The translations under genes were made by a program, and so were the position numbers. From NCBI GenBank assembly GCA_029959085.1, contig JARWIR010000018.1, positions 3,224,001 to 3,288,000 of the forward strand: 64,000 nucleotides of DNA. Reading direction: 5' to 3'. This DNA comes from Nemophila menziesii (lineage: Eukaryota > Streptophyta > Magnoliopsida > Boraginales > Hydrophyllaceae). The notes beneath the pieces were generated by a model. It worked only from the letters and a program-made list of their open reading frames with translations, ran no database searches and was not told where the DNA came from. Below are positions 7,721 to 55,821 of this stretch, piece after piece (the stretch's first letter is position 1; each line of letters begins with the position of its first letter).

Positions 7721-9125
7721 TGTTGGCATATAGCCTCCCTTAATAGGTTGTTTTAATGTGACAAATCCTCTTGTGTTTAGTGTGCTAATTATTCTTGTTA
7801 TACATATTCTATCTTGCACTCTAATTCATCAAAAGCACATTCTTTATCATTTAGATCAAAGCTTTATTGTTTTATCTTAAGAAACTAATTCTCATACAAA
7901 TACCTTTAACCTTATCTTTGTGTACATTGAGAATTAGCTTTAGTGATAAACTACAAAGTTTATTAGAATGATGTTCTCTACAACTCTCGTGAAGAAAGTT
8001 TTCTGATCCGAGCATCGTAGTAAAAGATATACTCATTAAAAGGTGTTTTAGACCTTTGGCGCGGTACACCGGACCTTGGGTGCGGTACACCGCAGATGTG
8101 CGGACCAGGGCACGGAGCATGGCTAGCCCGGGACTAGAAAATGAGCAATAAGCGAAAGTCGGCGCGGTGCACCTCACCAACCCCGCGGTGCACCGCAAGT
8201 TAGGGTTTCCTGCAGCAAAATGAAGACAAAAGGAATATATCCGTTGGGGATATTAATATATCCGTTGGAGACAAATCTTATGACCGTTGGGAGCATTTTG
8301 CAGCTATAAATTAAAGGTCTTTCAAGGCTACAATCACACCTTCAACCCATATACATTAAGGGGGTATATTGTTATCATCCAAGAAGGTGTCAAGAGCTAT
8401 AATTGTCATATCTACTCATTCAAGGAGTAAATCAAAGGAGCTTCAAAGTTATTATCAACTCAAGAGAAGTTTTAAGCTTATAGTTATATCATCTCTTTAG
8501 GAGTTCATTAGCAAAGTTGTTTCACCCTTTAAACAATTTGTATTTATCCTCTTAAGTCTAGTTCTTGTAATAGATAGGTTAAGAGAGAATTTGAGTATCG
8601 GGAGTATACTCGGTATCCTAGTGTTGTGATTACACAAGAGTTTCCTTCGTGGTTTCGAAGAGGTTGTCCTTCGTGTTATCGAAGAGGTTGTAAGGGTTAT
8701 TGAGTTCTCGACCCGGTTAAGAGAGACACGGGAGCTTAGTGAAAAGCTTGAAATCCTAAGGAGGCTTCCTTAGGTAGTGGATGTAGGGAAACCGAACCAC
8801 TATAAATCGTGTGTATCTTTCTATCCCTACTCTATTTACTTTCCGCACTTTATATGTTTGATAATATGCTAGCATGAATATTGTGATATTGATTATCTAG
8901 TTTATCTAACATATTGTCATCTAGAGTAGTAAGAGATTAGAAACTCGTTTTACTTGTATCACTTATATATAGAACCTCTTAGCTTATCCATTGTATGATC
9001 CCTTAGGAGTTTGATATATTAGTTGACTTAGAAGTTTCTTTCTTAAACTTATAATTGTCCAAAAGATTTTTAATTAGGCATTAATCTTATTAGTAATCCT
9101 ATTCAACCCCCCTCTAGGACTTTCA
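7721..9125 (+). repeat. 5' LTR of the copia-type element
   Basis: It begins TGTTGGCATATAG and ends GGACTTTCA. U3 carries two pairs of GCGGTRCACCGC palindromes (8061-8196), then TTAGGGTTT (8200-8208), then a TATA box TATAAATT at 8305-8312. Transcription probably starts shortly after the TATA box. Confidence 0.93.
8061..8196. promoter_or_regulatory. Two paired-palindrome units in copia U3 (5' LTR)
   Basis: Pair 1 starts at 8061 (GCGGTACACCGG) and 8082 (GCGGTACACCGC). Pair 2 starts at 8164 (GCGGTGCACCTC) and 8185 (GCGGTGCACCGC, a perfect 12-bp palindrome). Both pairs have a 21-bp start-to-start distance, and the pairs are 103 bp apart. The TATA box lies about 109 bp downstream. The identical module is in the 3' LTR (11959-12094). 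Confidence 0.75.
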
Positions 9126-9127
9126 AT

Positions 9128-9139
9128 TGGTATCAGAGC
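9128..9139 (+). other. Primer-binding site, initiator tRNA-Met type
   Basis: TGGTATCAGAGC lies two bases after the LTR end. This is the standard PBS of plant Ty1/copia elements. Confidence 0.93.
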
Positions 9140-9237
9140 CTAACTCTACGTGAATAGCTTAACCGTTAGTAGAGTAAACGATTTGGAATTTAATCTTTTG
9201 GAAGAGTTGTTTTCTACACAATCTCCATTTTCTTGTA

Positions 9238-9324
9238 GGTGATCGTTACTTTGCTTGGAGGAAACAAATGGAAGAATTAATATACGAAAGAACACTCAAA
9301 TCTCGAAAAAGGAAAATCCGGTGA
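9238..9324 (+). pseudogene. Scrap of a copia gag N-terminus
   Basis: The frame reads GDRYFAWRKQMEELIYERTL and runs to a TGA at 9322. The F-x-W-x3-M spacing resembles the start of copia Gag. It is preceded by a TTTTCTTGTAG acceptor-like stretch. Nothing Gag-like follows, so it is a remnant at best. Confidence 0.45.
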
Positions 9325-10362: not shown

Positions 10363-10498
10363 GCGGTGCACCAGACCACTCCGCGGTACACCGCGATCCA
10401 GGGTTTCTGTCTTTGTTATTTTTCTTTATCTTTCGCCCTGTTTATTCGCAAACATATTCTACAGTGCGGTACACCACACAGTAATAGCGGTACACCGC
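10363..10498. promoter_or_regulatory. Two paired-palindrome units in copia interior
   Basis: Pair 1 starts at 10363 (GCGGTGCACCAG) and 10383 (GCGGTACACCGC). Pair 2 starts at 10466 (GCGGTACACCAC) and 10487 (GCGGTACACCGC). Within-pair distances are 20 and 21 bp. The pair-to-pair distance is 103 bp, exactly as in the LTR, although the flanking sequence differs. AGGGTTTC (10400) and TAGGGTTTC (10503) follow each pair closely, as TTAGGGTTTC follows the second LTR pair. A TATA-like element downstream is not convincing. Confidence 0.7.
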
Positions 10499-11618: not shown

Positions 11619-13023
11619 TGTTGGCATATAGCCTCCCTTAATAGGTTGTTTTAATGTGACAAATCCTCTTGTGTTTAGTGTGCTAATTATTCTTGTTATA
11701 CATATTTTATCTTGCACTCTAATTCATCAAAAGCACATTCTTTATCATTTAGATCAAAGCTTTATTGTTTTATCTTAAGAAACTAATTCTCATACAAATA
11801 CCTTTAACCTTATCTTTGTGTACATTGAGAATTAGCTTTAGTGATCAACTACAAAGTTTATTAGAATGATGTTCTCTACAACTCTCGTGAAGAAAGTTTT
11901 CTGATCCGAGCATCGTAGTAAAAGATATACTCATTAAAAGGTGTTTTAGACCTTTGGCGCGGTACACCGGACCTTGGGTGCGGTACACCGCAGATGTGCG
12001 GACCAGGGCACGGAGCATGGCTAGCCCGGGACTAGAAAATGAGCAATAAGCGAAAGTCGGCGCGGTGCACCTCACCAACCCCGCGGTGCACCGCAAGTTA
12101 GGGTTTCCTGCAGCAAAATGAAGACAAAAGGAATATATCCGTTGGGGATATTAATATATCCGTTGGAGACAAATCTTATGACCGTTGGGAGCATTTTGCA
12201 GCTATAAATTAAAGGTCTTTCAAGGCTACAATCACACCTTCAACCCATATACATTAAGGGGGTATATTGTTATCATCCAAGAAGGTGTCAAGAGCTATAA
12301 TTGTCATATCTACTCATTCAAGGAGTAAATCAAAGGAGCTTCAAAGTTATTATCAACTCAAGAGAAGTTTTAAGCTTATAGTTATATCATCTCTTTAGGA
12401 GTTCATTAGCAAAGTTGTTTCACCCTTTAAACAATTTGTATTTATCCTCTTAAGTCTAGTTCTTGTAATAGATAGGTTAAGAGAGAATTTGAGTATCGGG
12501 AGTATACTCGGTATCCTAGTGTTGTGATTACACAAGAGTTTCCTTCGTGGTTTCGAAGAGGTTGTCCTTCGTGTTATCGAAGAGGTTGTAAGGGTTATTG
12601 AGTTCTCGACCCGGTTAAGAGAGACACGGGAGCTTAGTGAAAAGCTTGAAATCCTAAGGAGGCTTCCTTAGGTAGTGGATGTAGGGAAACCGAACCACTA
12701 TAAATCGTGTGTATCTTTCTATCCCTACTCTATTTACTTTCCGCACTTTATATGTTTGATAATATGCTAGCATGAATATTGTGATATTGATTATCTAGTT
12801 TATCTAACATATTGTCATCTAGAGTAGTAAGAGATTAGAAACTCGTTTTACTTGTATCACTTATATATCGAACCTCTTAGCTTATCCATTGTATGATCCC
12901 TAAGGAGTTTGATATATTAGTTGACTTAGAAGTTTCTTTCTTAAACTTATAATTGTCCAAAAGATTTTTAATTAGGCATTAATCTTATTAGTAATCCTAT
13001 TCACCCCCCCTCTAGGACTTTCA
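11619..13023 (+). repeat. 3' LTR of the copia-type element
   Basis: It has the same length (1405 bp) as the 5' LTR and about five substitutions by eye. It contains the palindrome pairs at 11959-12094 and a TATA box at 12203-12210. It ends in TTTCA followed by the ATCAA target duplicate. Confidence 0.93.
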
Positions 13024-13028
13024 ATCAA

Positions 13029-19783: not shown

Positions 19784-20214
19784 TGGTGTTCCAGGGGCAA
19801 ACCGGGAACCCGGTTTCGAGAGCTAAAATTTCCGAGGTTCTGACCTAGCGTTTTGGGTCCCATCGAGTTGCTGCGTCACCATTCGCGCCATCGACGGAAA
19901 CCGGGATCCCGGTTTCGCACAAACCGGGTACCCGGTTTTGGCGCTGTAAATTTTCCAACTTTCTGACCCAGCGTTTCCACTCCAGCCTTCTGCTGCGTCT
20001 TGGTCCGCGTCTTCACTCGCGCCGTCGACACGAACCGGGCCCCTGGTTTCACCAAAACCGGGTACACGGTTTCGAAGGGAAAAAGTTCTAACCCAGCATC
20101 TTGGGGTCCAGCCAAAATCTGCGTTTTGCGGTAAAAAAAAATTCAATTAAGTAATTTTCCGCGCCGACACAGCGGAACCGGGTACCCGGATTTCAAAAAC
20201 CAGGAACCCGGTTT
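19784..20214. promoter_or_regulatory. E1 paired-palindrome array (4 units)
   Basis: Palindromes of the form AAACCGGGNNCCCGGTTT come in pairs. The cores start at about 19784 (degenerate) and 19802, 19901 and 19924, 20035 and 20058, and 20178 and 20200. The 18-mers at 19898-19915 (AT centre) and 19921-19938 (TA centre) are perfect palindromes. The others have one or a few mismatches. Within-pair distance is 22-23 bp for pairs 2-4, and the pair period is about 122-143 bp. The array lies between integrase and ORF3. Flanks such as GCTGCGTCACCATTCGCGCC (about 19870) are nearly the same in E3, although E3's palindromes differ. Confidence 0.8.
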
Positions 20215-20601: not shown

Positions 20602-21921
20602 ATGACCAATAGAACCGGTGATTTCCGAAGAACTGCTCCTAGAAAGAAGATCACCATTGGTGGTACTCAAGAACAAGCTATTGAGATTCCTGATTCGCGT
20701 TCTAAACGCAAGATTGAAGAGGTTAAGCTTGCTCACAAGAGAAAAGAAATCATAGGTCAGAAGAGAAGATTAATTGATGAACCAGAAAGTGAAGAAGAAC
20801 ATGAAGATGAGATTGAGAAGGAAATTGAGGATGAAACAGAACAAGAAGTTCCGGAAGTACCAGTTCAACAGAACCCCCCGCGAAAGAAGATGTGGGCCCG
20901 TAAGCCAAAGAGGGTTTATACTTCTTGGAATGATCAGGTTCGTGAAAAAATTGAATTTTTGAAGTTTGGTTAGGAGATGGATTTTCATAAGGGTATTATG
21001 AGTAGTGCTCACAAAGATTATGCTGTGGCTTGTGACAAGTTTGGTTGGAAAGAACTGCGAGAAAGGAAGCTTGAGTTTATTCCTACTTTTGTGCGAGAAT
21101 TTTATGAAGGTTTATCTATTTGCCGTGAGGCAATTGAAATTCGCAAAAAGGTAATTCCTTTCTCTATTGAACTTATTCGGAAATCTTTGAAGTTACCCAA
21201 CTTTACTGGGTTATGTCCGTTCCAAGAATCCCTTAATGATCCATCCTTTGATTATGAATCCCTTTGGGGAACTGTGCTTATTAATGGGGCTAGCCTAATT
21301 CCAGAAGGAGAAAGGTATCTTGGACAGTTTTATAGCAGTAATTTGACACCTCGTGCGAAGGTTTGGTCTCGTTTCATAATCCCTACTTTCTTTGGAATTA
21401 AACACACATCCGAGTTGAAGAAGGAACATATACTTTTTATCAAGTGTGTTATGGAGGAGAAACCGATGAACGTTGCCAAAATTATTTATGACACCATCAT
21501 GGAATTCGCGAGAGCTCCAATGAAACAACAAAATCTCAAGTTTCCTTGTACCATCACTACTTTGTGCCTAGACGCAAAAATTCCGTGTAGGAACGCAGAT
21601 ATTGACAATGTTTCAGTTGGAGTGAGCATGGCATTGAGTACGATCCAGAATCTCCATGACGAAGCAACACGAGCTACGAAGACTACTAGAGTACCTCCAT
21701 CAAAGAAAGCAAAGTCTGTTCCTGAGTTGGAATTGAAAATTAGGGTGTTGGAAGAGAATCAAGAGAAGATGATTGCTACCTTAGGAAACGTTACAAGAGA
21801 GCTGGACCTTATTCGCAATTTAATCCTTGGCGTGAACACACTTCAAAATGCGGTTTATAATGTTCTCACGCAAGATAAGGGTCCAGAACGCAACACCGGT
21901 AACCAGCCACACGCTGGTTAA
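20602..21921 (+). pseudogene. E1 ORF3 (plant-transposon-protein domain), one nonsense codon
   Basis: The start is set at MTNRTGDF because MT(N/Q)RT is conserved at this point in all four elements. A basic N-terminus is followed by an acidic Glu-rich stretch (about codons 55-85) and then KRVYTSWNDQVREKIEFLKFG. A TAG at 20971-20973 replaces the Glu codon seen in E3. The frame then stays open to 21921 through WKELRERKLEFIPTFVREF and IPFSIELIRKSLKLP. A C-terminal heptad-like segment (LELKIRVLEENQEKMIATLG) suggests a coiled coil. The central part resembles the putative plant transposon protein domain (Pfam Transposase_32) often met in Athila-type elements. Its function is unknown. Some authors call this position env-like, but I see no signal peptide or membrane span. 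Confidence 0.8.
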
Positions 21922-22001: not shown

Positions 22002-22759
22002 ATTTTTGAGTTTGGGGTGGGGTTCGTTGCCTCATCCCAGTTTTTATGTGTTATTTGTTTTATTTGCTTTCAATAAAAGAATTTTCGGAGTTGCGTTTGA
22101 CTGTAGAAAATTTTAAATATCCCTTTAAGCATACTTTTGATGAATCTATGATAATAAATAGTGGACTTTAGGGATTTATATAAAACGCATTTAGAATTGC
22201 ATGCAAACATAGGTAATTGATAGGAAAAATTAATGAACAATGCAAATGAAGTAAGCTTGTACTTAAGGAATATGTTTGGTGTGTAGAACGTGAAATCCTA
22301 ATTAGTAGAGAACGCACCTAGATATGAACTAAAGACGAGCTATGTACATAGGAAAATGATAGGGGCAGTTCTTTGTTAGCCATTTGTGACCTTTTTAGCC
22401 TTCTATCCCTTGTATTAATTATTATCCGTCTTAGCCCACTTTGAGCCTTTAGCCTTTTCTTTTGTAGCCACAATATAAGCCATTATCCCTTAGATTATTA
22501 GGCATGACCATAAGACCCTCACTTGAATCACAATCCCGAGACATGTCTCGAGCTTGAGTTTGGGGTGGTGGGTCCACTTATGGGGAATTTATTGGGTAGA
22601 GATTAATGTGCTTTGTATTGTAGCACAATTGCAGATAATATATACTTGTAACCCTTTGCCGGGAATGAGAAAAAATGAAAAAGAAAGAAAAAATAAAAAT
22701 TCGAAAATCCAATACAGTAGAAACCGGGAACCCGGTTTGCAACTGTACAAAAAAAAAAG

Positions 22760-24958: not shown

Positions 24959-25082
24959 ATATCCAACATAAAATATTGAATTTAAATTAAATAATGAAAT
25001 CCCATATTCAAAAAACTATAATTAAAAGGATTAGGGTTCAACCAATAATGCGATTCTCAAGTACTAAATGAAATTAGATCAT
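24959..25082 (-). repeat. LTR X, middle piece (minus strand)
   Basis: Between E1 and E2 lies sequence that reads as an inverted Athila LTR segment: AGGGTTCAACC and GCGATTCTCAAGTACT, compared with ATTCACCC and TTCTCAAGCACT in E3. Its last five bases, ATCAT, are the left target duplicate of E2. Confidence 0.55.
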
Positions 25083-26656: not shown

Positions 26657-26662
26657 AGTTTT

Positions 26663-34421: not shown

Positions 34422-34488
34422 GAAAAGACTCAACGAAATAAAAACAAACTAAACTAACTAAAACGCGAAAGGGATTAGAAAACGTATC

Positions 34489-35823
34489 TTAACCAGCGCG
34501 AGGCTGGTTATCGGTGTTGCGGCCATGAACTTTCTCTTGCGTAAGAATACCATAGGTGGCGTGTTGAATTGTGCTCACCCCCATTAACATGTTTCGGAGA
34601 AGTTCTAGCTCTTTTGTAACGTTTCCCAAAGATGCAATCATCTTCACTTGATTCTCTTCTAACACCTTCACTTTCGCTTCCAACTCATCAGTTGTATGCA
34701 TCTTCTTCTTTGGAGGAGCTCTAGGATTCCTTGTTGCTTTCACCACCTCATCATGAATATTCTTGATCAAAGTTAAACCCATACTCTCACACACTACAAC
34801 ACGATCAATCTCTGCGTCTTTACGCGGAACCTTTGCGCCTAAACACAAAGCAGTGACGGTACAAGGAAATTTGAGATTTTGTTGTGAAGTAGGAATTCTA
34901 GCAAATTCCATGATGGTATCATATATCACACGAGAAACATCCATGGGTTTCTCCTCAATAATACACTTAATGAACAAAAGATGCTCCTTCTTCACTTCCG
35001 ATATGTGTTTAACTCCGAAGAAGGTAGGAATTATGAAACGTGACCAAATCTTAGCACATGGTAGCAAGTTACTACTATACATCTGTCCAGGATATCTCTC
35101 TCCTTCGGGAATTGGGCGGGCCCCATCAACAAGCACTTTCCCCCAAAGGGATTCATAATTAAACGAAGGCTCTTTAAGAGATTCTTGAAACAGACATATT
35201 CCAGAAAACTCGGGTAATTTCAATGATTTACGAATAAGTTCAACGGAGAAAGGAACTACCTTTTTGCGAATAATGACAGCTTCTTTTGAGAAGGCGATTC
35301 CTTCACAAAAATCTCGCACCAAGGTAGGAATATACTCAAGCTTCCTTTCTCTCAATTCCTTCCATCCCAATTTATCACAAGTAACACCATAATCTTTATA
35401 AGCACTAGTCATAATACCTTTAGGAAGATTCATCTCCTCACCAAACTTCAAAAATTCAATTCGATCACGAACCTGAGCATCCCATGGAACGAAGACTCTC
35501 TTAGGCTTTTGAGCCCAAGCTTTCCTACGCGGAGCTTTTGGTTGTTGCACTGGTTCTTCGGGTACCTCTTGTTCAGTTTCTTCCTCAATCTCTTCTTCAA
35601 CTTCTTCCTCACTTTCTTCATCACTCTCATCAATTAACCTGCTCTTTTTCGGATTAGCCTTACTCGGATTTTCTTTTCTTTTCGGAGCAATTGGGTTTTG
35701 GACAGTCTTTTTGGATCGCGAATCCGGAATCTCAATTGCTTGGTCTGGGCTAGCTCCAATATTGTTCCTGTTTCTTGGTATGTTTCTTCGATAGTTACAC
35801 ATGGAATCGGTTCTGTTAGTCAT
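34489..35823 (-). CDS. E3 ORF3, intact 444-aa plant-transposon-domain protein
   Basis: The start is MTNRTDSMCN, the conserved MT(N/Q)RT start. Residues 1-60 are basic and low complexity. Residues 65-92 are acidic (Glu-rich). Residues 100-330 form the conserved domain (KRVFVPWDAQ, DRIEFLKFGEEMNLP, LGWKELRERKLEYIPTLV, VVPFSVELIRKSLKLPEF, WSRFIIPTFFGVKH). Residues 370-415 contain a heptad pattern (DELEAKVKVLEENQVKMIAS) that suggests a coiled coil. I see no transmembrane segment or signal peptide. The domain resembles Pfam Transposase_32 (putative plant transposon protein). Its role is unknown. It is the only undamaged long ORF of E3. The CGCCACC region near its end and the hairpin follow closely. 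A DNA- or RNA-binding, multimerising protein is my inference from composition only. Confidence 0.87.
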   Translation of the reverse strand: MTNRTDSMCNYRRNIPRNRNNIGASPDQAIEIPDSRSKKTVQNPIAPKRKENPSKANPKKSRLIDESDEESEEEVEEEIEEETEQEVPEEPVQQPKAPRRKAWAQKPKRVFVPWDAQVRDRIEFLKFGEEMNLPKGIMTSAYKDYGVTCDKLGWKELRERKLEYIPTLVRDFCEGIAFSKEAVIIRKKVVPFSVELIRKSLKLPEFSGICLFQESLKEPSFNYESLWGKVLVDGARPIPEGERYPGQMYSSNLLPCAKIWSRFIIPTFFGVKHISEVKKEHLLFIKCIIEEKPMDVSRVIYDTIMEFARIPTSQQNLKFPCTVTALCLGAKVPRKDAEIDRVVVCESMGLTLIKNIHDEVVKATRNPRAPPKKKMHTTDELEAKVKVLEENQVKMIASLGNVTKELELLRNMLMGVSTIQHATYGILTQEKVHGRNTDNQPRAG

Positions 35824-36213
35824 CTCTTTTCACCCCAAACTCAAAACTTCAAATAGAGAAAAAGCTAGAGAAAAGCTTTGAAATTTGATGTTTTGAGGCT
35901 TAAAACTTGAAGGATTAGGTGGAATGTGAGATGGGTTAAGGTTATTTGAGAGGGATTTTGAAAGAATTGGGTTTAATTTCAAGGTTGGGAGAAAGAAATT
36001 TTTGGAGAAAATATGATTTTTGGTGATGTTTTGGAGAAGATGTGAGTTGATTTTGTGTTTTTGTGATGATAGAAGGCTTGATTTGATGATTTTATAGCTG
36101 TTTGGCGATGATTTTCGGAGTAGGTGGAGGCAAGGATTCGGAATATAAGGTTTGGCTTGGAAAAGAGGCAAAAAACTAGGTTTAATAAACTCAAAACCGC
36201 CTCTCGCAACAGC
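35824..36213 (-). other. E3 putative ORF3 leader
   Basis: It reads on the minus strand as a long noncoding leader. It begins with a PPT-like TTTGAGTTTGGGGTG (35831-35845) just ahead of the ATG and carries a weak TTATATTCC TATA-like site (36140-36149) about 70 bp from the first palindrome. Confidence 0.45.
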
Positions 36214-36393
36214 TGGCCGGCTAGCCGGCGGATTCGCCGCATGCCGGTCGCGAAGGCGGCGAAAAATAATTACTACTTTTGACATTTTTTTTTACCTCAA
36301 AACGCAAGTATATTGCGTCGTCGCTGACGCAGTGATCAGAACTCTCGACATTCTTGGCCGGCTAGCCGGCGGATTCGCCGGCATGCCGGTCAA
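36214..36393. promoter_or_regulatory. E3 paired-palindrome array, units nearest ORF3
   Basis: Cores start at 36217 (CCGGCTAGCCGG) and 36237 (CCGCATGCCGGT, damaged), then 36358 (CCGGCTAGCCGG) and 36378 (CCGGCATGCCGG). GCCGGCTAGCCGGC at 36216-36229 and 36357-36370 is a perfect 14-bp palindrome. The cores are 20-21 bp apart. The units are 141 bp apart. A solo LTR separates these from the other two units. Confidence 0.82.
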
Positions 36394-36420
36394 ATGTCGA
36401 TGGCGCATTTGATGACGCAG

Positions 36421-38183
36421 TGATGTCTCCCGTTTTGTTCTAATTATTAGCCCCTTGGAGACATCCTTTTAGGTGAATAAATGACTTGTTTGATAGACTT
36501 TTAAGCTTATTTGATCATATTACACTTTCTCCCTTTGGAAATTAACTATTTGCAGAATCTGAGCTTTTGTGCGTAAATTTGACTATTTTTAATGTAAAGT
36601 TAATTGGTTCTTGAATTTCATGAAAGACCAATCCAAGGAGAAAAAGTGAGAATAAAGTCTTAGTGTATTTTAGAGTGTTAGGAAATGATTTCTAGTCGAG
36701 TTTCTATTTTTAGAGTACACTTTCCTATTTCGATTTTTTGATTTCTTGATTTATTCTTTTTAAGCATATGCGGTTTAATTATTTATTTAATGTGAAGCTT
36801 TAAAGAGATAAATGGTAATTACTTAGAGGCCAAGTCAAGATAAAGATGAAAGGAAAGAAGATTTACATGGAAATAAGAAGATTTGGTAAAGATTTATTCA
36901 AAGGAGGAAAAGATAAAGCTGCCTTTTGAAATCTGAAATCCAGCCACGTTTTAAGAATTAAATCATAATAAAAGATTGGCATGGATTCTGGACGATTGGT
37001 CTGCACCAATAGAAAGAGCTTTCCAAGACAAGTGGTTTCATATATTGGAACTTCTCAAACGGATAAGTATTGAAAAAGATATGACCAAATCAAATCAGCA
37101 AAATCTTACCTTCTAAGAGCTACGAATTTGAGAGTCTTTGACTTGTCTTCCACTCCAAGCAAAATTCGACCTAGGGGCTTCCAACACCTATAAATACACC
37201 CCTTAACCTCCTACTTTCAGACACTTCAGAGAAATATACAAGAGGCTTAAGGTTTTCAAGTCATAGCACAAAGGAGAGAAGAAGCTAGAAGCTGGAGGAA
37301 TCTTGTTCTTCCAACCATAGTCATTCTACCCTTTAGATTTTTCGTTTATCTTTTGTATTTGAACATGAATTCCTTTTATTTAATGTTAGTTTTTAATTCC
37401 ATCATGAGCTAAATTTCTTTATACTTGAGAATCGCATAAAAGGGATGAACCTTAATTAATTAATCTATGTTTTGAATTTGGGATTGTTAGATTTAAATAG
37501 GATTGAGTTTTATATATTGGATATTACTTTGTTTTTATTACTAATTCTTTTAGGAACAACTAGAATTAGCTTTTAGTATTTGGGCTATTCCATATAGTGG
37601 CGTATGGATCATCCGACAAGGGGGTTTGAACACAGATCTAGGTAATACCCGTGTAATGTCCGTTATTGACCGACAGGCTTAACTAGTTACATAGCCAAAG
37701 AGGTAAAATCTTATCATCCGAAAAGCAATATTCGACCATACAGGTGTTTATGATACTTTAGGATAGCTTCTAGGTCCATCCGACAGGGGGCTAGGAGATA
37801 TTAGAGTCCCGACTAATATTATAATTCCAATTCTACCCTTAAACATAACATAGATTACATTGATTAGGTGGATTCCTTTGCGAGGATCAAGTATATCTCT
37901 CTTATCTGAAGTTAGTCGTTATTTGCTTTATTTCTTTTCTGTTAATTTAATCTTTAGTCTTTATTTTATTTGCATCTTTTAATTTACAAAAACCAAACAA
38001 AAATTCTATCTTTTATTTTTCTGTTTAGCAATTATCTCTACTATCTGATTAATATTTGGGTTGAACCTAATCCGTCCCTGAGAACGAACTTGTTTATCAT
38101 ATATTACTTGGGACAACCGTACACTTGCGGTTAAGTGGTTCCTCTATTTTGCACTTAATTTTATAACACCCTAGGACCCACCA
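36421..38183 (+). mobile_element. Solo LTR 1 (1763 bp) inside the E3 palindrome array
   Basis: It begins TGATGTCTCC and ends GGACCCACCA, flanked by CGCAG at 36416-36420 and 38184-38188. A TATA box, TATAAATA, lies at 37189-37196. The terminal inverted repeat at its start ends in GGAGACATCC. It is closely related to solo LTR 2 at 53915. It formed by LTR-LTR recombination of a full element. Confidence 0.93.
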
Positions 38184-38235
38184 CGCAGCAACCTTGCGTC
38201 GTCGCTGACGCAAGGACCAGAACCTTTCCTCCATT

Positions 38236-38394
38236 TGGCCGGCTAGCCGGTCAGTTGACCGGCATGCCGGCGGAATCTCGATAGCGCGAATGATGACGCA
38301 GCATTGCTGCGTTGTCGCTGACGCAGTGGTCAGAGAGTTGGGGTCCTTCAGCTCGTTTGGCCGGTATGCCGGCCAGCTCGCCGGCTAGCCGGTC
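38236..38394. promoter_or_regulatory. E3 paired-palindrome array, units nearest integrase
   Basis: Cores start at 38239 (CCGGCTAGCCGG) and 38259 (CCGGCATGCCGG), then 38361 (CCGGTATGCCGG) and 38381 (CCGGCTAGCCGG). Both pairs have exactly 20-bp spacing. Repeated CTGCGTC/GACGCAG words fill the spacer. Confidence 0.83.
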
Positions 38395-38632
38395 AGACTT
38401 GCTGTGGACTTCAATTTTTTTTCGTTTTCTCATCGTTTTGACCCCAAACTCATGACCATTATACCCCTGAAATCATCAAAAACAAACACCCTTCCTCATT
38501 TCTTTTTAAAAATAAACACTAAATTAACGAAAACCAATCTAATTTAAACTACGAAAAATAAAAACTTAAACTAATATACAAGAAATTGGCTTTTGTTTAA
38601 CGTCGTTAAGCTCGACGGGTTACCTCGTGCTT

Positions 38633-41600: not shown

Positions 41601-42253
41601 CCCGGTTCTCTCACAGGTTCATAGGCAGGACGCCTATACTTCGGATTTTCAGAATTGAGAGCAGCTATTGTTTCAGTAAGCTCTTCCATCATCTCAGGTG
41701 AATCTAATGTTAAAGCAGCCTGCAAGATATCATCAAAATTTAAACAATTAAATACCTCTTGCGATGCTTGCTCCGCTACATCCATTCTGAAGCAATCTTC
41801 CTGAGAATCTGGGAATTTCATAGCTCGAAATACATTGAATTTTACTTCCTCATCTTGTATCCTCATCGTTAATTCGCCATTCTCTACATCGATCAATGTT
41901 CTCTCTGTAGCTAGGAATGGTCTACCCAAAATAATGGGGACATATCTATCTGCATTGTATTCAATTATTACGAAATCAACAGGAAATATAAGTGTACCTG
42001 CCTTAACAAGGACATCCTCAATGCGGCCTTCAGGATGAGCAAGAGACCTGTCCGCCATTTGCAAGACCATAGAAGTGGGTCTTGCGTTTCCAATTTTTAG
42101 CTTATCAAATATCGACTTGGGCATCAAATTGATGCTTGCTCCCAAGTCACATAGCGCTTTTCCTTTCCATTCCTCTCCAATCGATATGGGAATCGTGAAA
42201 CTCCCCGGATCTACTAACTTCGGAGGTAATTTACTCTGACAAATCGCGCTACA
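38633..42253 (-). pseudogene. E3 protease-RT-RNase H-integrase, one in-frame stop
   Basis: A single frame runs from the TAG at 42254-42256 to the stop at 38633, broken only by TGA at 39935-39937, where E1 has Trp (TGG). It holds protease (GASINLMPK, IILGRPFLAT), RT with FMDDFSIFG, RNase H ([20 protein letters not shown]) and integrase ([50 protein letters not shown]), then [18 protein letters not shown]. It ends at the same point as E1 Pol (MYLLEAP against MYLLETP). The damage is slight and fits recent inactivation. Confidence 0.9.
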
Positions 42254-43561
42254 CTATTCCGGAAGACCAATCATCTCATTATCACAATAGGGCCTTTTGT
42301 TAGTGAGGGCCCTCTTCAAAAACTTCGTGTACTTAGGAATATCTCGAATCGCCTCAAGTAACGGAATATTAATACTTAGACCCTTCACTCTATTAAAGAA
42401 TTTCTGAAAATCACCCAAATCACCCTTTTTCTGAACTCGCGATGGAAACGGTGGTGGAGGGCGATTAATCACAATATCATCCTTCTTTTTCGGAACTTCT
42501 CTTGGTCTCACTATTTCTTCAACCTCACTATCTTTCTCATTTTCTTTCTCTTTCTCAACCACTTCCTTTTCTTTTCTTGGTATTTCTTTCTCTTTCATAA
42601 CGGGAAAAGGAGGTGGAGGAAGATTCTTACCACTTCTCAATGTAACAGCATTACAATCTTCGCGTTGCTTCGGATTCTCAGTATCGCTTGGAAGTTGTCC
42701 TTGTGGACGTTGATTGAGTTGTTTATTAATCTGGCTTAGCTGATTCTGGAACAAACTCATATTGGCTTCGATTGCATTTTGACGTTCCATAGCTTGTGTT
42801 TGGAGAGCAATTAAATTTTCAACTGATTTCTGAAGAGCGACTACTCCTTCTTGTGGATGGGCAGGTAGGGCTTTTTGGTTTAAAGTTTCATCGTATGTAT
42901 TTCGAGGAGTATTCTGAGGAGCTTGCCTTTGTACATAATTACCCTAATTCTGTCCTCCTTGATAATTGTTGTGTGGTCTTGGATTATAGTTGTTACCTTG
43001 GGGACGCGGCTGATACGCATAGGTAGGATTGGCTGCCCCATTAGGATTTGAGTATTGAAACCCAGGATGGTTTCTGTTAGGTTGATATCCATTACCACTT
43101 GAATTGAAGTTACCTCTATTGGACATAAACATCACGAATTCTTGGTTATTCGGACAACCTTCCTCATCATGATCATCTACTTTGCAAATCGAACACATAT
43201 AAACCTCTTGTGCAGCATGCACAGCTACCTTCTTACCCGAAAATCCTTCCTTTACAGCTAAAGTAAGCTGCTTCAATTGTTGCTCAATAGTACTCTGAAT
43301 CTTATTCTCAAACGTAGCAAATTTTTCTTCTATATCAACATTATTCACTCCCTTGACCGGTGTTCTTACTGAATTCCACCCAACTTCATTCTTGACTGTT
43401 CTCTCTAAGATGATTTTAGCATGAGCGGGTTGAACTTGAAGAAAACCTGCACCACATAGCGTATCCAATTTCTCTCTTGAATTCCCATCAAGGCCTCTAT
43501 AAAAGATCTTTAACTGTTGTTGTTCTGAAAAGCCATGATTGGGAACCTTACGTAAACACAT
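42254..43561 (-). pseudogene. E3 gag C-terminal part, in-frame stops
   Basis: It holds the second Gag block, a complete CCHC knuckle (CSICKVDDHDEEGC, CX2CX4HX4C), an N/Q/P-rich linker and a Lys/Glu-rich stretch leading to protease. Stops are TAG at 42944-42946 and TAG at 42254-42256, where E1 has CAA and GAA. The frame is the same as in pol downstream, so gag-pol was one reading frame. Confidence 0.87.
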
Positions 43562-43613
43562 CTAGAATCTTGTCCAACTCTTACCCAAAGTTTCATCATA
43601 TTCTTGTCCAACC

Positions 43614-44270
43614 TTACGTCAATTCTAATTCAGCATCTAACCTCATGTTACTTGGGTAATACCTGTCAAAGAAAGCAATCTCTAATTGGTCCCAGTTGGT
43701 TATCTTCGTAGGATCTTGCGTATCATGCCATTCACTTGCTCCATCAATAGCAAAGAATTTAAACGCAGCAAAATACATCTGTTCTCTCAAAACTCCTTGT
43801 GTGATATAAGAATCACATATCTGTTTAAACTTCTGTACTGCTCTAAGAGGATCTTCTGATGGTCTACCACGAAAATTTCCAAAGTTTTGGAATTGAGCTA
43901 ACATACCCGAATCTGGACGGAATCTCAGAACATCTATATCTGGAGCACCTACTCCTATAGCTGGAGCACGGAATGGAACTTCTGGAGGACCATTAGTAAA
44001 CCACGGATCTTGATTCATCACTATTTGAACTTGAGGATTAGGAATCACTGGTGGAACGGGAGGGATAGCGCCTGGGGCCAAAGGTTGGCCATTTGCGCCT
44101 AGTTGATTGTTTTGACCATTAAGATTGATATCTTCCATTCTGTTACTTAATTCTTCTACTTCTAAAGCTTCTCGTTCTCTTCTTCTCTTGTTAGCAAGTC
44201 TGATCAACGATTCTGGATTACTAAGGATCAGAGGTGTTGGCTCTAGATCCTTGAATAGTCTTCTTCGCAT
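43614..44270 (-). pseudogene. E3 gag N-terminal part
   Basis: It starts MRRRLFKDLEP, 108 nt after the PBS. It has a basic segment, a Pro-rich segment and the Gag core PSEDPLRAVQKFKQICDSY. It ends in a TAA at 43614, and a frameshift between 43561 and 43614 separates it from the next gag part, whose frame starts after a TAG near 43561. Confidence 0.85.
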
Positions 44271-44377
44271 ACACCAAACCTAAAAACCTGAAAAGAACTA
44301 AACAAAAAGCGTAAAACTGATAAAATAAAATAAATGCACTATCACTAAAGGATAAACACCGTGGTCACACGCTACCG

Positions 44378-44395
44378 TCCCCGGCAGCGGCGCCA
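44378..44395 (-). other. E3 primer-binding site, tRNA-Asp type
   Basis: The minus-strand TGGCGCCGCTGCCGGGGA lies six bases inside the 5' LTR end. Plant tRNA-Asp ends ...CCCCGGCAACGGCGCCA, a one-mismatch match over the PBS. tRNA-Asp priming is typical of Athila elements. Confidence 0.9.
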
Positions 44396-44401
44396 AAAAC
44401 T

Positions 44402-45963
44402 TGGTGGTCCTTTGTGTGTTCTAATAAATGCAATTAATAATCGAACCACAACCGCAAGTGTACGGTTGTCCCAAGTAGTAATAACTGATAAATCAGATTC
44501 GTTCCAAGGACGAAATGGTTGATCACAATGTCTAACAAATAGTGATTGATGCACTTATGAAAATAAAAGATAATAATATGTTTGTTTGGTTTTTGTTATT
44601 AAAGCTAATGAATGAAAGACAATTACTAAAATGTAAATAAAAGCTAAGACGCAAGTAAAATGATGTAAAACGCAATATGAGATGTAGCACTTGAGAACGC
44701 AAGGATCCTCCCTATCCTATTTCTTAACTTATGCTGTTTAAGGGATAAATTAGTCAATTACAATGGTCGGGATTCTAATTTCCTTATACCCCCGTCAGGG
44801 TGGACTATAAGGCGATCCTAAAGTGTCACTAGTCCCGTCAGGGTAAATATGATCCGCCGTTGGATGATTAAGTGTTATTACCTCATTGGCCCTAGGATTA
44901 GCTAAGCTCGTCAGAATCATTAACTTCTATCCTAGATTGAATAAATGGGTCCGTATTTAAACCCTCCGTCAGGATGATCCAATTGCCACTAATTGGAATA
45001 GCCTAAATACTACTACCTGTTCCTAGTTCATGACGCTAAAAACAGTAAATATTCATAATTTATCGAAAAGAGTAAAAACCCTAATTTAGTTTAATTCAAT
45101 AAAAACCCAAATTCAACATTCGTTAATTAATAAGATTGGGATTCACCCATTGTTTGTTCTCAAGCATTATAGAAAACTTAGCTCATATTAAAATGAAATA
45201 CGAAATTAAAAGTAATGGAATTCATATTGTTTACAAAATTAAAAAGATAAAAGAACCTAATTTCCGGAATCGGAATGACTACGAACGGAGATATAGACCC
45301 TCCCCAACTCTTGTAGCTTCTTCTCCTTCCTTCAGTTGCTTCTCTCTGGTGTTTTTTTTTCTTGCAGAATGTGAATTGTCTGTAAAATAGAAGTCCAGGC
45401 CTCTTTTTATAAGCAATAATTCGTTCTAAGGCTTTGACCAGAAAATGGAATATTAATTAAATGTCCAAGCCCACTTTCTAAGCCCAAAATCCCGTAACTG
45501 CTGATACACCTTCACTAAAACGGCTTTTCCCGATGCGTTATGACTCCGATTGACCTCATTCTAGTTGCTAAAGTTCCGTAACTCGATAAGGAATGATTTC
45601 TCTTCAAAGGTCAGCTGCTAAATCATCGCTTAAGTACCTCGAAATCAGCAATCTATGGCCTGGAAAATGGATTTTCAGCTCTAAAAATAATATCTTCGGG
45701 ATTTCTTTTCAAGTCTTGACTCTATCTTTTGATCTTTGACTTTCTCCTCGGATTCCTCTTCTAGCTAACATCTAAAACCTGTAAAATCTTCACTAAAAAT
45801 ACCAATATTACGTGCAAAAGCTTAATAAATCAAAAATGCTAGAAATAAAAGAGGAAAATCATATTATTGCATATTTAGTCCAAAAGTCTATCAAATTGAT
45901 TAAATAAACACCAAAAATGATGTCTCCTAAGGGTCGAAAATAAGAACAATTAAGGAGACATCA
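44402..45963 (-). repeat. E3 5' LTR
   Basis: It is 1562 bp and nearly identical to 31475-33037. The minus-strand TATA box TATAAAAAG is at 45403-45411. It ends GGAGACATCA, followed by ACTGG (45964-45968). Confidence 0.94.
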
Positions 45964-46705: not shown

Positions 46706-47067
46706 ACTGGCCGGTAGGCCGGTCAAACCACCGGCATGCTGGTGGGGAGACACAAGCTCACGGGATTGGTGGATTCGGGTTTATAGCCGAGGCGTGCAAA
46801 AGAAAGACCATGCGCACCCGTATGCCGCCCAGGGCACCGGTATACCGGCCAGAAGAAAAACACGAGGCCTCGGGTATCTTGACTCGGGTATTTTGACGGA
46901 GTGAAAAAAATCGACAAATGGCTCACCGGTATGCCGGACATTCCACCGGTATGCCGGCGTGACAACATGTGAGCACGGGTTTTAGGCTCGGGTTTCACTG
47001 CCGAGGCATGCATCGTTTGTTCATCTCCAGCACCGGTATGCCGCCGACCTGGGCGGTATGCCGGCCC
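46706..47067. promoter_or_regulatory. E2 paired-palindrome array (4 units)
   Basis: Cores start at 46711 and 46731, 46817 and 46837, 46924+2 and 46944+2, and 47033 and 47053. Each pair is exactly 20 bp apart, and pairs recur every 106-109 bp. Examples are CCGGTATGCCGG (46926 and 46946) and the perfect CCGGTATACCGG (46837-46848). This is the most regular of the arrays. Spacers contain CTCGGGTATTTTGACG and GAGCACGGGTTTT words that also occur in E4. Confidence 0.85.
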
Positions 47068-47167
47068 GAAGGTCGGTTTTGAAGTGTTTATTTCCTAATC
47101 CACATCTTACCTTATTATTATTATGAAACCCTAGCCTCCTTAATATGAATTTTTCAAACCCAAACCT

Positions 47168-47175
47168 TATAAATA
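47168..47175 (+). promoter_or_regulatory. TATA box of the putative E2 ORF3 promoter
   Basis: TATAAATA lies about 104 bp after the last palindrome and 267 bp before the ORF3 ATG. AAACCCTA (a telo-box word) lies at 47126-47133 between array and TATA. A CA-rich, leader-like stretch follows. Confidence 0.55.
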
Positions 47176-47441
47176 CACCTTGATACTTGATTAAACCTCC
47201 ACAACAGACACAACAACATCAATAATCATCTCCTCCATCTTCCATAAACACATATTCTTCATCAAATTCATCACACTACACCATTAAACATCACCAAGAT
47301 CATCAAGTTATCAAGAATTCTTCCAAGAATGATCAAGAAACCTTCTTCTATCATCAAATCCAAGCAAGAAACTCAAGCCACACCAATCTTTCTTAACTCT
47401 AATCCATCCTTGGTGTAACTTGAGTTGTCTGTCAATCAAGC

Positions 47442-50331: not shown

Positions 50332-50395
50332 TTACCTAAAAACAGAAAAAAATGGAGATGAGAGACAACAAATCCCCACACCCCAACTAAAAAAT

Positions 50396-52077: not shown

Positions 52078-53207
52078 GCACTTGATTAGCTTTGATTTGT
52101 GCCACATCGTTGGCTAAGGAAGTTTGAGCTTCTTTGAAATTGTTTAAACGCTCCTCCATCTTCTGTTGCCAACTTTGCTCCTTTTTTTCTTTTGAGACTT
52201 GCGTAGAACCTGCTCCTCTCAAGACTTTCCCGATCCAAGCATTATCAATAGTAATCTTCTTAAATTCAAGTTTCTCTTCTTCACCCAATATAACATTCAC
52301 GTTCGCACAAGACACGTGATCATAGTAGGATATTTAACATTATAAACTGATTTAGGAGAGACCGGAAATCGCATCACCTCCTCAAAGATCAACTATGCCA
52401 CTTCCACTTCTTCTTCTCTTAAAATACAATCCAAAAGTAGAGCGTTCTTCTTAGTCACATCCAAAGTTTGTGTGTTTCCAAAGACATTAGGAATAAGGAA
52501 ATTGTGCCAACTCTAGCATCTGGTTGAAGATATTTGTAAGGCCAAGGTGCCTTCAATTCTCCCTTATGTGATTGCACTTTCTCCATGTCTAAAACATGCT
52601 CATAAAGTAATTCCCAATCACAGATTTTTCGTTTAGCCACCGCTTCGCTATACTTGCATGGTCCAACCAATTTCTTAAACTGGAAGTGGTTTTTAATCTT
52701 TTTAACTGCGAAAGGAACTAACTTTCCTCTAATCGGAACACAACCTTCACTATATCGGCTAAAAAGGCCTAAACAGAAATCTAAAATTAGCTCATGACAT
52801 AAATCAGAACGTCTTACCATGAATGTAGACCAACCCAATCTTTCACCAAGCTCCAAGAATCTCTTATATTCTTCTGTACCAACTTCTTCATCGAATACTT
52901 TCGCATAAGCAAAAGGTAGTTCCTTTAAGTGTTTCTCCGCAGATGCTATCAAGGCCTTTGAAGCTTTCTCTTTATCTTTGGGTGTAGGACCTTTGAATGG
53001 AAGAGGTTGTGTTTTCTTCTTGGAATAGAGTGGAACCCTTTTTCCCATTGAATTAAACATAGCCGGCTTACCTCCCTTTTCATTATCGATTTTACCCTTG
53101 GTTTTGGAACTAGAACCTCTGTTACTTGATTTCTTCTCAATTGAACCCAATACCTTGCTTTTCTTCACCTCCCTCTTGTTAGAAAATGTTTCTGTTCTTT
53201 GAGTCAT

Positions 53208-53652
53208 CTCAATTAACCCCCAACTCAAAGCTGTAACAATCCTAAAAATTTGAACACTTGATTATAGGTTGAACAAGCTTAATTTGGTTTAGGAAAGGTG
53301 AATTGATGATGAATCTCTATGTGGGTAAGAGGAATTCTTGATGGATTGGTATGGATCTAAGAAATTGTAGGATGAATTTCGAAAATTTAAGCTTTCGATT
53401 CTTCAATTCAATATGTTTGGTGAGAATTGGGTGATTGAATCTCCTTTGTAATGATGTGGAGAGAAGATTTGTTGTGTTTCTATGATGATTGGGTAGTGTT
53501 TTGATGTTTGGGAAAGGTTTGATTGAGCTTCAATGGACTTGGGAGAGGTTTGGAGAAGAAAGAGAGGCTTAATGATTAAAAATTTCGGAATATACAGACC
53601 TCTTTCTCTTTTATAACCTAAAAACGAAGCTTTCTTCTCTCTCCAGCGGCGT
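53208..53652 (-). promoter_or_regulatory. E4 ORF3 leader with TATA box
   Basis: The minus-strand TATAAAA at 53609-53615 lies about 40 bp from the first palindrome and about 400 bp before the ORF3 ATG. A PPT-like TTTGAGTTGGGGGTTA precedes the ATG (53214-53229). Confidence 0.5.
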
Positions 53653-53914
53653 CGGGCGGCATACTAGCCATAAGGCACAGCATGCCGGTGCTGGAGCTCT
53701 TGGAATCCGAGTTACGTCAAAATACCCGAGACGAGGACTCGTGGGCACGGGTTTTTCTTTTGATCGGCATACCAACGATATCGCCCGGCATGCCGGTGCT
53801 GTTGATGATCGAATTTCAATGTATCCTGTCTTGTCCACGTGACGACACCTGTGGGAACGGTTTTTTTGACCTAAGTGGCATACCGGAGATGTAGCCCGGC
53901 AATACCGGTGCTGG
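53653..53914. promoter_or_regulatory. E4 paired-palindrome array, three units
   Basis: Cores start at 53656 (degenerate) and 53677, 53764 and 53785 (CCGGCATGCCGG, perfect), and 53875 and 53896. Each pair is 21 bp apart, and the period is 108-111 bp. The second member of each pair is followed by TGCTG. A solo LTR separates the fourth unit. Confidence 0.8.
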
Positions 53915-55710
53915 TGGTGTCTCCCTATTTGTTCTAATTATTAGCCCTCTGGAGACATCATTTTAGGTGAATTATTGACTTAGTAGCTAGACTTTCATGC
54001 ATAAATTTCCATATTACACTTTTCCCCCTTGGAATTTAACTATTTGCATTTTCTGAGCTTTTGTGCGTAAATGTGACTATTTTTGATGCAAAGTTAAATA
54101 TGTTCTTGAATTTCATGAAAGACCAATCCAAGGAGGAGAAGTGAGAATAAAGTCTTAGTGTATTTTAGAGTGTTAGGAATGATTTTTACTCGAGTTCCTA
54201 TTTTTAGAGTACACTTTCCTATTTCGTTTTCTTGATTTATTGATTTATTTATTTTAAGCATATGCGGTTTAATTATTTATTTAATGTGAAGCTTTAAAAG
54301 ATAAATGGTAATTTCTTAGAGACCAAGTCAAGATAAAGATTAAAGGAAAGAAGATTTACATGGAAATAAGAAGATTTAGGAAAGATTTATTCAAAGAAGG
54401 AAAAGATAAAGCTGCCTTGTGAATCTGAAATTCCAGCCACGTTTTAGAGATTAATTCATAATTAAATATTGACAAGGATTCTGGACGAATGGTCTGCACC
54501 AATAGAAAGAGCTTTCCAAGACAAGTGGTTTCATATATTGGAACTTCTCAAACGGATAAGTATTGAAAAAGATATGACCAAATCAAATCAGCTTATCTTT
54601 TTTAGAATTTAGGGTTACGAATTTAAGAGTCCTTGACTTGTCTTCCACTCCAAGTAAATTCGACCTAGAGGCTCATAACACCTATAAATACACCCCTTAG
54701 CCTCCTCTTTTACACACACTTCATATAATTATCAAAGAGGCTTAAGGATTCAAGTCAGAGCAAGCAGGAAGGAAGAAAGCTAGAGCTGGAGACTGTCTAT
54801 ATCTCCAATTCAAGCCAAACCCAACCTCTTCATTAGGTTTTATTTATTTCTTTCTGTAAAACATTATGTCTTTTAATTTCATAGTTTTAGTTTTATTTTC
54901 CATTATGAGCTAAACTTCTTAAGTGCTTGAGAATCGCTATATAGGTTGAACCTTAATTTATTTAATTGATGTTTTCTGATTTGGGATTTTTATAATTTAA
55001 TTCGAATTGAGTAATTTAGTATTGTTTGTTATCGTAAATTAATTTCGCTATATTTAATCTGATCAATTAGACATAGGTTTGAGTAATTAGGCTATTCACT
55101 TTGGTGGGGAGGTGATCATCTTGACGGGGGGGGGGGGTTTAATTACTGACATAGCTAATAAACGTAAGATAGAAATTATTGATCCTGACGGACTTAGTTA
55201 ATCTTATAGCCAATTGGGTAGAGAACCTGACATTCGAAGGTGGATTATGATCGCCCTGACGGGGTTTGTAACACCTGCGAATAGCTCCTAAGTCCACCCT
55301 GACGGGGGTTAGGAGAATCTAGAATCCCAACTACTACTAGTTACTAATTTGTCCCTTAGAAGAAGCATTGATTAAGTTTATTTTGGTGAAACCTAGCGTG
55401 ACTCAAGTACTACTCTCTCATATTTTAGTCTCTTCATATTTAATTTCTTGCATTAGTTTAATTTTAGTTTAATATTTACTTTAATTGCACTTTAGTCCTT
55501 TAATCAAAAATCAAATAAAAATCTATTTTCTTTACTTTTAATTTTCATTCAAGCAACTATTTCCATTTATTGCATAACACTTTAATCATACCTAATCCGT
55601 CCCTGAGATCGAAATCCCGTTTACCAGATATTACTTGGACGACCCGTACACTTGCGGTACGTGTCTTGCCTTTTTAGGTGTGTTTATTTAGAACACACTA
55701 GGAGACACCA
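53915..55710 (+). mobile_element. Solo LTR 2 (1796 bp) inside the E4 palindrome array
   Basis: It reads TGGTGTCTCC...GGAGACACCA, with GCTGG at 53910-53914 and 55711-55715. A TATA box, TATAAATA, lies at 54683-54690. It is of the same LTR family as solo LTR 1. An 11-G run (about 55126-55137) is present. Confidence 0.93.
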
Positions 55711-55821
55711 GCTGGCATCTCTCGAAAGCTAACCTTCTGTCTTGAACACGTGGCCTGACCCGTGGGCTCGGGTCTTTGCCCGCCGGCTTACCGGTGTTAA
55801 TGGCCGGCATGCCGGTGCTGG
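55711..55821. promoter_or_regulatory. E4 paired-palindrome array, fourth unit
   Basis: Cores start at 55783 (CCGGCTTACCGG) and 55804 (CCGGCATGCCGG, perfect), 21 bp apart. After removal of the solo LTR the unit lies about 107 bp from the third. Confidence 0.8.

Follow-up and report, generated by a model that had tools for sequence, protein, structure and literature searches.

The closest described counterparts of the paired-palindrome arrays that we report here, from five long terminal repeat (LTR) retrotransposons in a 64,000-nucleotide (nt) stretch of Nemophila menziesii DNA (the window), are the RM boxes of Sireviruses, repeated palindromes with a CGG-CCG signature that occur in the LTR ahead of the TATA box and a second time before ENV, form CpG islands and have been called Sirevirus-specific (PMC2829016, here and below as far as its available text goes). 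The RM motif of Citrus contains CCGGCTWRCCGG (PMC2829016), which fits the palindrome CCGGCTAGCCGG of one of our elements, E2, and palindromes in maize Sirevirus LTRs were reported by Bousios et al. 2016, as cited in the available parts of PMC5311732 and PMC10760457. In the VANC/VANDAL system, dense arrays of short non-coding motifs diverge in sequence between families while their organisation is kept, and the element encodes an accessory protein (PMC5735166, in its available text). Finally, the additional open reading frames (ORFs) described for Athila and other LTR retrotransposons include, in Athila, a 3' ORF with the domain PF20167 and a predicted nuclear localisation, and the available text of that study (PMC11728184) links no cis array to the ORF.

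The window is plant DNA built from nested LTR elements, of which four Athila-type Ty3/gypsy elements (E1 to E4) and one Sirevirus-type copia element carry arrays (Table 1). Every array site is a near-palindrome with the core CGG-N4-CCG, common to all five elements, several sites being imperfect, most of them in E4 and E3. Exact CGG-N4-CCG occurs 29 times in the 64 kb, where base triplet frequencies predict about two, and 28 of these 29 sites lie inside array regions (6,984 bp as drawn, the whole copia element included). The length of the centre is specific within the 64-kb window: gaps of 0-3 give 0, 3, 1 and 2 sites and gaps of 5-8 give 4, 3, 1 and 9, the nine sites at gap 8 mostly echoing the pair spacing. 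The arrays are also the most CpG-rich part of the window, the top 30 windows of 300 bp all overlapping them. A scan for GC-rich palindromes (12 bp, at least eight G+C, at most one mismatched pair) found eight pairs at 18-25 bp, a count in which LTR copies enter twice and one pair, with 25 bp between starts, does not belong to an array, versus none in each of 100 dinucleotide shuffles made in 1-kb blocks. Together with reversed-pattern controls in the genome, these shuffles rule out a chance origin of the arrays.

The sites are joined in pairs of nearly constant geometry. Start distances are 23, 23 and 22 bp in E1, 20, 20, 20 and 19 bp in E2, 20 bp in all four pairs of E3, 21 bp in all four of E4 (one E4 site having an extra base), 21 and 21 bp in each copia LTR and 20 and 21 bp in the copia internal region; pairs repeat every ~99-143 bp in the window, mostly every ~91-167 bp in other copies and at 219 bp in copy L037. 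An earlier note on this DNA had described just such a paired architecture in five elements of two superfamilies, with start distances of 20, 21 or 22-23 bp, a repeat of 100-143 bp, and two copia pairs per LTR with two more inside, and its coordinates and spacings hold, save that one E2 pair is at 19 bp and one internal copia pair at 20 bp. Its count of four pairs per Athila-like element, one E1 partner being called degenerate, is right for E2, E3 and E4, whereas E1 has three pairs and a first site with no recognisable partner; its description of the palindromes as element-specific applies to the centre and outer flanks and not to the CGG-N4-CCG core. It did not recognise the copia half as something already published for Sireviruses, nor did it include the position of the arrays upstream of ORF3 with TATA-like boxes, the PF20167-like ORF downstream in both element types, or the splitting of the E2 and E4 arrays, in each case by an insert that resembles a solo LTR and has a 5-bp target duplication.

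The same geometry recurs throughout the host genome (1.52 Gb), in which the window lies at G000:C89:3224001-3288000. Pairs of CCGG-N4-CCGG (CCGGNNNNCCGG) with gaps of 0-28 number 17,508, versus three for the reversed-pattern control. Gaps of 7-9 account for 9,502 of them (by subtraction) and gaps of 10-11 for 7,848, all listed ones of the latter being of CCGGGNNCCCGG type; only 36 fall at gaps 0-6 and 122 at gaps 12-28, many of the listed ones being triples. In all, 17,350 of the 17,508 (99.1%) have start distances of 19-23 bp. GCGG-N4-CCGC (GCGGNNNNCCGC) pairs number 3,481 versus five in the control, with gaps of 7-10 in 3,091; among the 50 listed, 40 are at gaps 7-10 and ten at gap 1, the latter forming a second class with a 13-bp start distance. 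Pairs of CCGGYATGCCGG gave 801 matches genome-wide and none in the control, and among the 78 listed the spacer is eight or nine bases long in 77 while 62 distinct spacers occur. The earlier note's expectations that the pattern would be absent from shuffled sequence and that related elements would not hold their palindromes at random distances are thus clearly borne out, as is its claim that geometry is kept while sequence varies, both across the superfamilies and genome-wide. The spacing is not universal, since 13 bp separates the starts in both pairs of one Sirevirus LTR subfamily. Two observations stand apart from these counts. A tandem run of CCGGCTTACCGG at G000:C46:30081049-30081240, about ten in a row with an exact 20-bp pitch, resembles an expanded pair unit. 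GCGG-type pairs at 20 bp in L032, L036, L037 and L039 lie in stretches that do not match the window Sirevirus LTR and may belong to a third element group; a Pfam scan of frames from L036 and L037 yielded nothing informative.

In the Athila-type elements the integrase ORF ends ahead of the array, and ORF3 begins after it. When flanks of 1.5 kb were inspected at eight array loci, both neighbours were found in two, ORF3 only in three, a weak pol-end match only in one and neither in two; at six distinct places (14 overlapping loci), three had both, two ORF3 only and one neither. Eight further E2-type ORF3 copies, the first after the window's own in the genome match list, all have exact sites within 1.3 kb upstream, and seven have pairs, all at 20 bp (near-sites were sought at 19-21 bp only). 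A TATA-like box (TATAWA) lies 120-121 bp past the last palindrome in all eight, and among 12 Athila stretches of E1, E2, E3 and E4 type, 11 have TATAWA no more than ~170 bp past the array; E1 itself has none within that distance. The box is followed by a G-poor leader. Where a start codon that opens a frame of at least 60 amino acids (aa) is within reach, it comes ~273-275 nt after the box in E1/E2-type copies and ~408-447 nt after it in E4-type copies; in E3 and L006 no such start codon was found in the scanned range. Other E1-type copies have a palindrome pair ~2.5 kb downstream of the array. Because E1 carries the gypsy gag domain PF03732, the motif is not confined to Sireviruses, and we class the Athila arrays as the same kind of motif as RM boxes, not as members of them. 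Two other accounts of the sites were rejected. Integration-target palindromes came into question because solo-LTR-like inserts sit within the E2 and E4 arrays, but they do not explain the arrays, as neither insertion point falls in a dyad core and the preference that has been published is weak (available text of PMC6911290). Nucleosome phasing was set aside with inter-pair distances varying over ~91-167 bp.

The copia element fits the published description of RM boxes, and the copia half of the pattern is thus a further case of a known feature. Its palindromes have the CGG-CCG core, number at least eight per element and, in the LTR, lie 340-475 bp from its start, in the upper half and upstream of the conserved TATA box. 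The linker and the 3' LTR have four sites each, with the exact core in two and three of them, respectively, and one mismatch in the others. The CTATAAATT stretch (TATA box) that follows the LTR pairs is identical in 10/10 aligned Sirevirus LTRs, two of which come from one element, and one of the ten, L040b, has lost one site. Further Sirevirus hallmarks of the element are its primer binding site, a poly-C integrase signal and repeated GGGGGAGA-like polypurine tracts, although a pattern scan of its relatives showed that not each copy has every hallmark. The copia gag domain PF14223 was matched in the relatives L024 (above cut-off) and L040 (below cut-off), and neither the window copy nor the interior of L038 or L040 has a long frame of pol size. 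In Sirevirus-type copies the accessory ORF, which may correspond to the published ENV, is preceded within 600 bp by exact CGGN4CCG sites in 8/8 cases, and in 7/8 these form one or more exact pairs at 20 or 21 bp. The window copy has the linker sites and lacks the downstream ORF of L038 and L040.

Comparison of families indicates how the arrays change. The arrays of L010 (E1-type) and L017 (E2-type) can be aligned, and 555/821 positions are identical outside the sites versus 74/181 inside. GGG-N2-CCC is the core of all ten L010 sites, and in eight of these the A/T flanks are near-symmetric; all eight sites of L017 read CCGGC-N2 followed by GCCGG or ACCGG; as read from these alignments, all sites of an array have changed alike while dyad symmetry and spacing stayed. 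In L033, a stretch 82% identical over 501 bp to the E4 leader and ORF3 start lies downstream of an array whose exact palindromes (GCGGTNTACCGC), GCGGTATACCGC and GCGGTGTACCGC, are of Sirevirus type. The Sirevirus LTR subfamily of L025, L027 and L030 has both pairs at 13 bp versus 21-22 bp in its relatives, and the bases missing differ between its two pairs. Each E2 pair combines one CCGGCTAGCCGG site with one CCGGCATGCCGG-like site, so that one CTAG and one CATG-like centre are found in 4/4 pairs in the window. Repeat number varies from about three to five pairs in the fuller arrays to one exact site left in L042. Across ten LTRs, conservation is 0.946 in half-site columns, 0.81 in the rest of the array region and 0.876 over the whole LTR. 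As a separate observation, the spacers of E2-type arrays seem to have a second imperfect dyad (YTGCGTC-N6-RACGCAR type, minus strand) in three of four units.

An ORF with similarity to PF20167 lies downstream of the array in both superfamilies. Among Athila-type elements the match is strong in E1 (E 2e-27) and E2 (E 4e-23), that of L033 (E 2.7e-9; 37.6 versus 45 bits) stays under the curated cut-off, and the E4-type copies L001 and L006 match the E1/E2 ORF3 in tblastn. The Sirevirus-type ORFs of L040 (E 3e-8), L038 (E 2.5e-7) and L024 (E 1.2e-4) score 34.2, 31.2 and 22.4 bits, all below the same 45 bits. Direct comparisons between the two groups were negative: a hidden Markov model (HMM) of the local Athila ORF3s misses the L040 ORF (E 0.59), the reverse HMM gave no significant match to Athila ORF3 (best E 0.089), and hhalign of the two tiny alignments found no relationship. 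The PF20167 link across both superfamilies is therefore suggestive, not settled. No internal stop was found in 73 of 95 scored E2-ORF3 copies (of 25,990 candidates) or in 69 of 97 scored L040-type copies (of 2,440 candidates), by our count in the best matches, a biased sample. The E2 ORF3 reads as having a basic stretch, KRKENPSKANPKKSR, and a C-terminal coiled-coil-like region, over which bZIP_1 matches below cut-off (E 0.0024; 18.4 versus 27.6 bits); beyond this match no DNA-binding domain was recognised in ORF3, and its structure prediction was uninformative (predicted local distance difference test score, pLDDT, 35.6). A protein database search found no relatives of E2 ORF3, and a search of viral contigs found none of E1 pol.

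The arrays share with RM boxes the CGG-CCG palindromes, their many copies, the LTR and linker sites, the CpG richness and the element-specific sequence. They differ in being present also in Athila-type members of Ty3/gypsy, whose LTRs, as far as three of them in the window show, have no CGG-CCG site, and the fixed pair spacing and shared PF20167 ORF are not among the features described in the available text of PMC2829016. Like VANC motifs, they are dense, short and non-coding and differ between families. VANDALs, however, belong to the DNA transposons, copies of the VANC21 motif, YAGTATTAY, all point the same way in an array, and VANC binding was demonstrated by chromatin immunoprecipitation sequencing and electrophoretic mobility shift assay (available text of PMC5735166), whereas binding to the arrays here is putative; the main text of PMC5735166 does not mention the word palindrome. 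What seems to be new is the presence of arrays between pol and ORF3 of Athila-type Ty3/gypsy elements, together with the strict geometry of the pairs, sequence switches that take in a whole array, and a PF20167-like ORF downstream in both superfamilies. Athila arrays were not found described in the open-access literature searched, and the eight papers there that contain the six palindromes literally are unrelated, judging from their titles and the beginnings of their abstracts.

These features suggest that the arrays are probably cis-regulatory, with paired dyad sites in clusters to which a dimeric, sequence-specific protein would bind. From sequence, geometry, position and genome-wide recurrence we infer protein binding, promoter activity and the dimeric or tetrameric state of the binder. 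CGG and CCG, four bases apart, would serve as half-sites, and two dyads 19-23 bp apart would accommodate two dimers per pair. In Athila-type elements, the array would most likely supply an internal ORF3 promoter with its upstream activating (or anti-silencing) sequence, followed by the TATA-like box, the G-poor leader (~270 nt in E1/E2-type and ~400-450 nt in E4-type copies) and ORF3. In Sirevirus-type elements, the array lies in the LTR ~107 bp before its TATA box and is present a second time in front of the accessory ORF. A strong drop in CG methylation between the LTRs of sunflower SIRE elements (available text of PMC12844716) would fit anti-silencing and does not show it. Evidence on dimers comes from the centres of the palindromes: in 13 non-E1-type pairs, ten of which are CTAG plus CATG-like (E2-type) and which come from few elements, mismatch is 0.19 for self-symmetry versus 0.58 for arm-to-arm pairing, and this excess of self-symmetry in mostly E2-type pairs favours two protein dimers over an RNA hairpin. 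Paired dimer sites upstream of a promoter would be the most economical reading of the arrays, and the joint change of all sites of an array suggests, by analogy with VANC, that their reader may change specificity with the family.

Several results weigh against this reading or limit its support. The 13-bp pairs and the 22-23 bp of E1 fit no single helical phase, so that the strict rule of two helical turns and one face of the DNA in the earlier note is not supported; its two dimers are favoured by E2-type self-symmetry, whereas 37 E1-type pairs (mismatch 0.45 versus 0.45) and the TATG/TATG pairs (58 of the 78 listed, with equal mismatch either way) are neutral. No TATAWA is present in the 600 bp before the Sirevirus-type ORF, array included, in 8/8 copies, which weakens an internal promoter for Sireviruses, and in such AT-rich DNA TATAWA is not rare, with an estimated ~0.3 per 150 bp by chance. 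The ~21,000 pairs of the genome (17,508 + 3,481) are repeat copies related by descent and not independent events, and the Athila copies come from no more than about three lineages. Other CpG columns in the LTRs are as conserved (0.942) as the half-sites, and the site identities in the comparison of L010 with L017 depend on the alignment.

The binder could be a host or an element-encoded protein. A host transcription-factor or chromatin-protein family that recognises CGG half-sites could have been exploited convergently, with different members accounting for element-specific centres and flanks, and we consider this a real possibility, if a little short of probable. It would explain a core common to two superfamilies otherwise without detectable DNA similarity (L040 compared with nine Athila-type loci and window positions 13101-63900 gave no DNA match better than E 0.011). 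LBD proteins may be candidates, and we identified no plant factor with such paired geometry. The presence of the core in Sireviruses of both monocots and dicots (PMC2829016) also fits a host factor, but simultaneous change of all sites in one element is less expected from a slowly evolving one.

That joint change within a family is more in keeping with a binder encoded by the element itself, in which the PF20167 ORF product, as a nuclear coiled-coil protein, would bind the pairs and activate or un-silence its own family in the manner of VANC, whose motifs are short, dense, non-coding and coevolving with the protein (available text of PMC5735166). The ORF lies downstream of arrays in Athila and Sirevirus-type copies (L040 and L024 also having PF14223), most scored ORFs are stop-free, albeit in a sample biased to the best matches, and a nuclear signal is predicted in the PF20167-bearing 3' ORF of a sunflower Athila element (PMC11728184). 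We nevertheless regard this explanation as rather doubtful: the PF20167 matches of the Sirevirus-type ORFs and L033 are below cut-off, the cross-HMMs and hhalign were negative, the only trace of a DNA-binding domain is the bZIP_1 match and the ORF3 model has low confidence, the ORF3s of E1 and E2 are 67% identical despite different palindromes, and LTR boxes have been reported in Sireviruses without ENV (PMC2829016). Its fullest form, in which paired CGG-N4-CCG dyads and a downstream PF20167 protein that reads them as two dimers, activating or un-silencing the family, would make up a shared cis-trans module, with dyad sequence and spacing switching array-wide as families diverge and the palindrome GCGGTRYACCGC used in both superfamilies, appears unlikely.

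Alternatively, a pair could act in RNA as an inverted repeat that folds into a hairpin, for use by the element or by the small-RNA machinery of the host, and E1-type and TATG/TATG pairs are compatible with such folding. Small RNAs map to maize Sirevirus palindromes (available parts of PMC5311732 and PMC10760457), and six arrays fold more strongly than their dinucleotide shuffles (z -1.6 to -8.7), but such scores are expected of any palindrome array and were set aside as non-diagnostic. A hairpin needs no self-symmetry of its arms, yet E2-type arms are self-symmetric at the cost of arm-to-arm pairing, and we judge this explanation to be improbable. Unequal crossing-over or slippage could instead have multiplied a CpG-rich palindrome unit that has no function. 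This would account for the tandem units and their variable number, and is very unlikely given that spacers diverge within units while dyads and spacing persist, with nearly all CCGG-type pairs at 19-23 bp.

Table 1. Positions of arrays, promoter-like boxes, ORFs and related features in the window; paired site starts are separated by a slash.
Feature	Position	Strand	Remarks
copia 5' LTR (non-autonomous Sirevirus-type)	7721..9125	+	self-BLAST; LTRs 99.3% identical
copia 3' LTR	11619-13023	+	self-BLAST versus 5' LTR
copia target duplication ATCAA	7716-7720 and 13024-13028		read from sequence
copia 5' LTR, two palindrome pairs	8061..8196	+	starts 8061/8082, 8164/8185; GCGGTACACCGC / GCGGTGCACCGC type
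copia 5' LTR TATA box TATAAATT	8305..8312	+	~107-108 bp past last LTR palindrome
copia internal region, two palindrome pairs	10363..10498	+	starts 10363/10383, 10466/10487
copia 3' LTR, two palindrome pairs	11959..12094	+	
copia 3' LTR TATA box	12203-12210	+	
E1 array, AAACCGGGNNCCCGGTTT type	19802..20211	+	unpaired site 19802; pairs 19901/19924, 20035/20058, 20178/20200
E1 ORF3, 315 aa frame	20974..21921	+	PF20167 Transposase_32, E 2e-27
Lone E1-type palindrome 3' of E1 ORF3	22724..22735	+	
E2 array	36217..38392	-	pairs 38381/38361, 38259/38239, 36378/36358, 36236/36217
Solo-LTR-like insert splitting E2 array	~36420-38183		target duplication CTGCG
E2 TATA-like box CTATAAAATC, between array and ORF3	36088..36097	-	
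E2 ORF3, 446 aa frame	34489..35829	-	PF20167, E 4e-23
E3 array, CCGGTATGCCGG type	46711..47064	+	pairs 46711/46731, 46817/46837, 46926/46946, 47033/47053
E3 TATA-like box TTATAAATAC	47167..47176	+	
E4 array, CCGGCATGCCGG type, several sites degenerate	53656..55815	-	pairs 55804/55783, 53896/53875, 53785/53764, 53677/53656
Solo-LTR-like insert splitting E4 array	~53920-55710		target duplication CCAGC
E4 TATA-like box TTATAAAAGA	53607..53616	-	
E4 ORF3, 268 aa frame	52455..53261	-	PF20167, E 0.053 only

The layout of the window suggests that E3 is the outermost element (LTRs at 25082-26657 and 62366-63941, 94.6% identical), with E2 and E4 nested inside it. E2 spans 31475-45963, with LTRs 99.1% identical and ACTGG at both flanks, and E4, at about 47.5-60.4 kb with LTRs 95.4% identical, adjoins the E3 array and TATA-like box on their downstream side. 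The inserts within the E2 and E4 arrays are related (77% identical), which may reflect a preference for array regions. The Athila-type assignment of E1-E4 is supported by PF03732 (E1; gag ORF 57582-58874), PF20167 (E1 and E2) and the LTR pairs, the lineage name itself being our assumption. A 309-aa open frame at 1599-2528 is presumably a fragment of a MULE-type transposase.

For the role of the env-like/ORF3 gene in Athila and Sirevirus elements, the array upstream of it gives defined probes for a binding test. If the reader of the sites were encoded by the elements, this would be, to our knowledge, the first case among LTR retrotransposons of self-recognition of the VANC kind. If the binder were a host factor, its identification would name a regulator shared by two abundant groups of elements.

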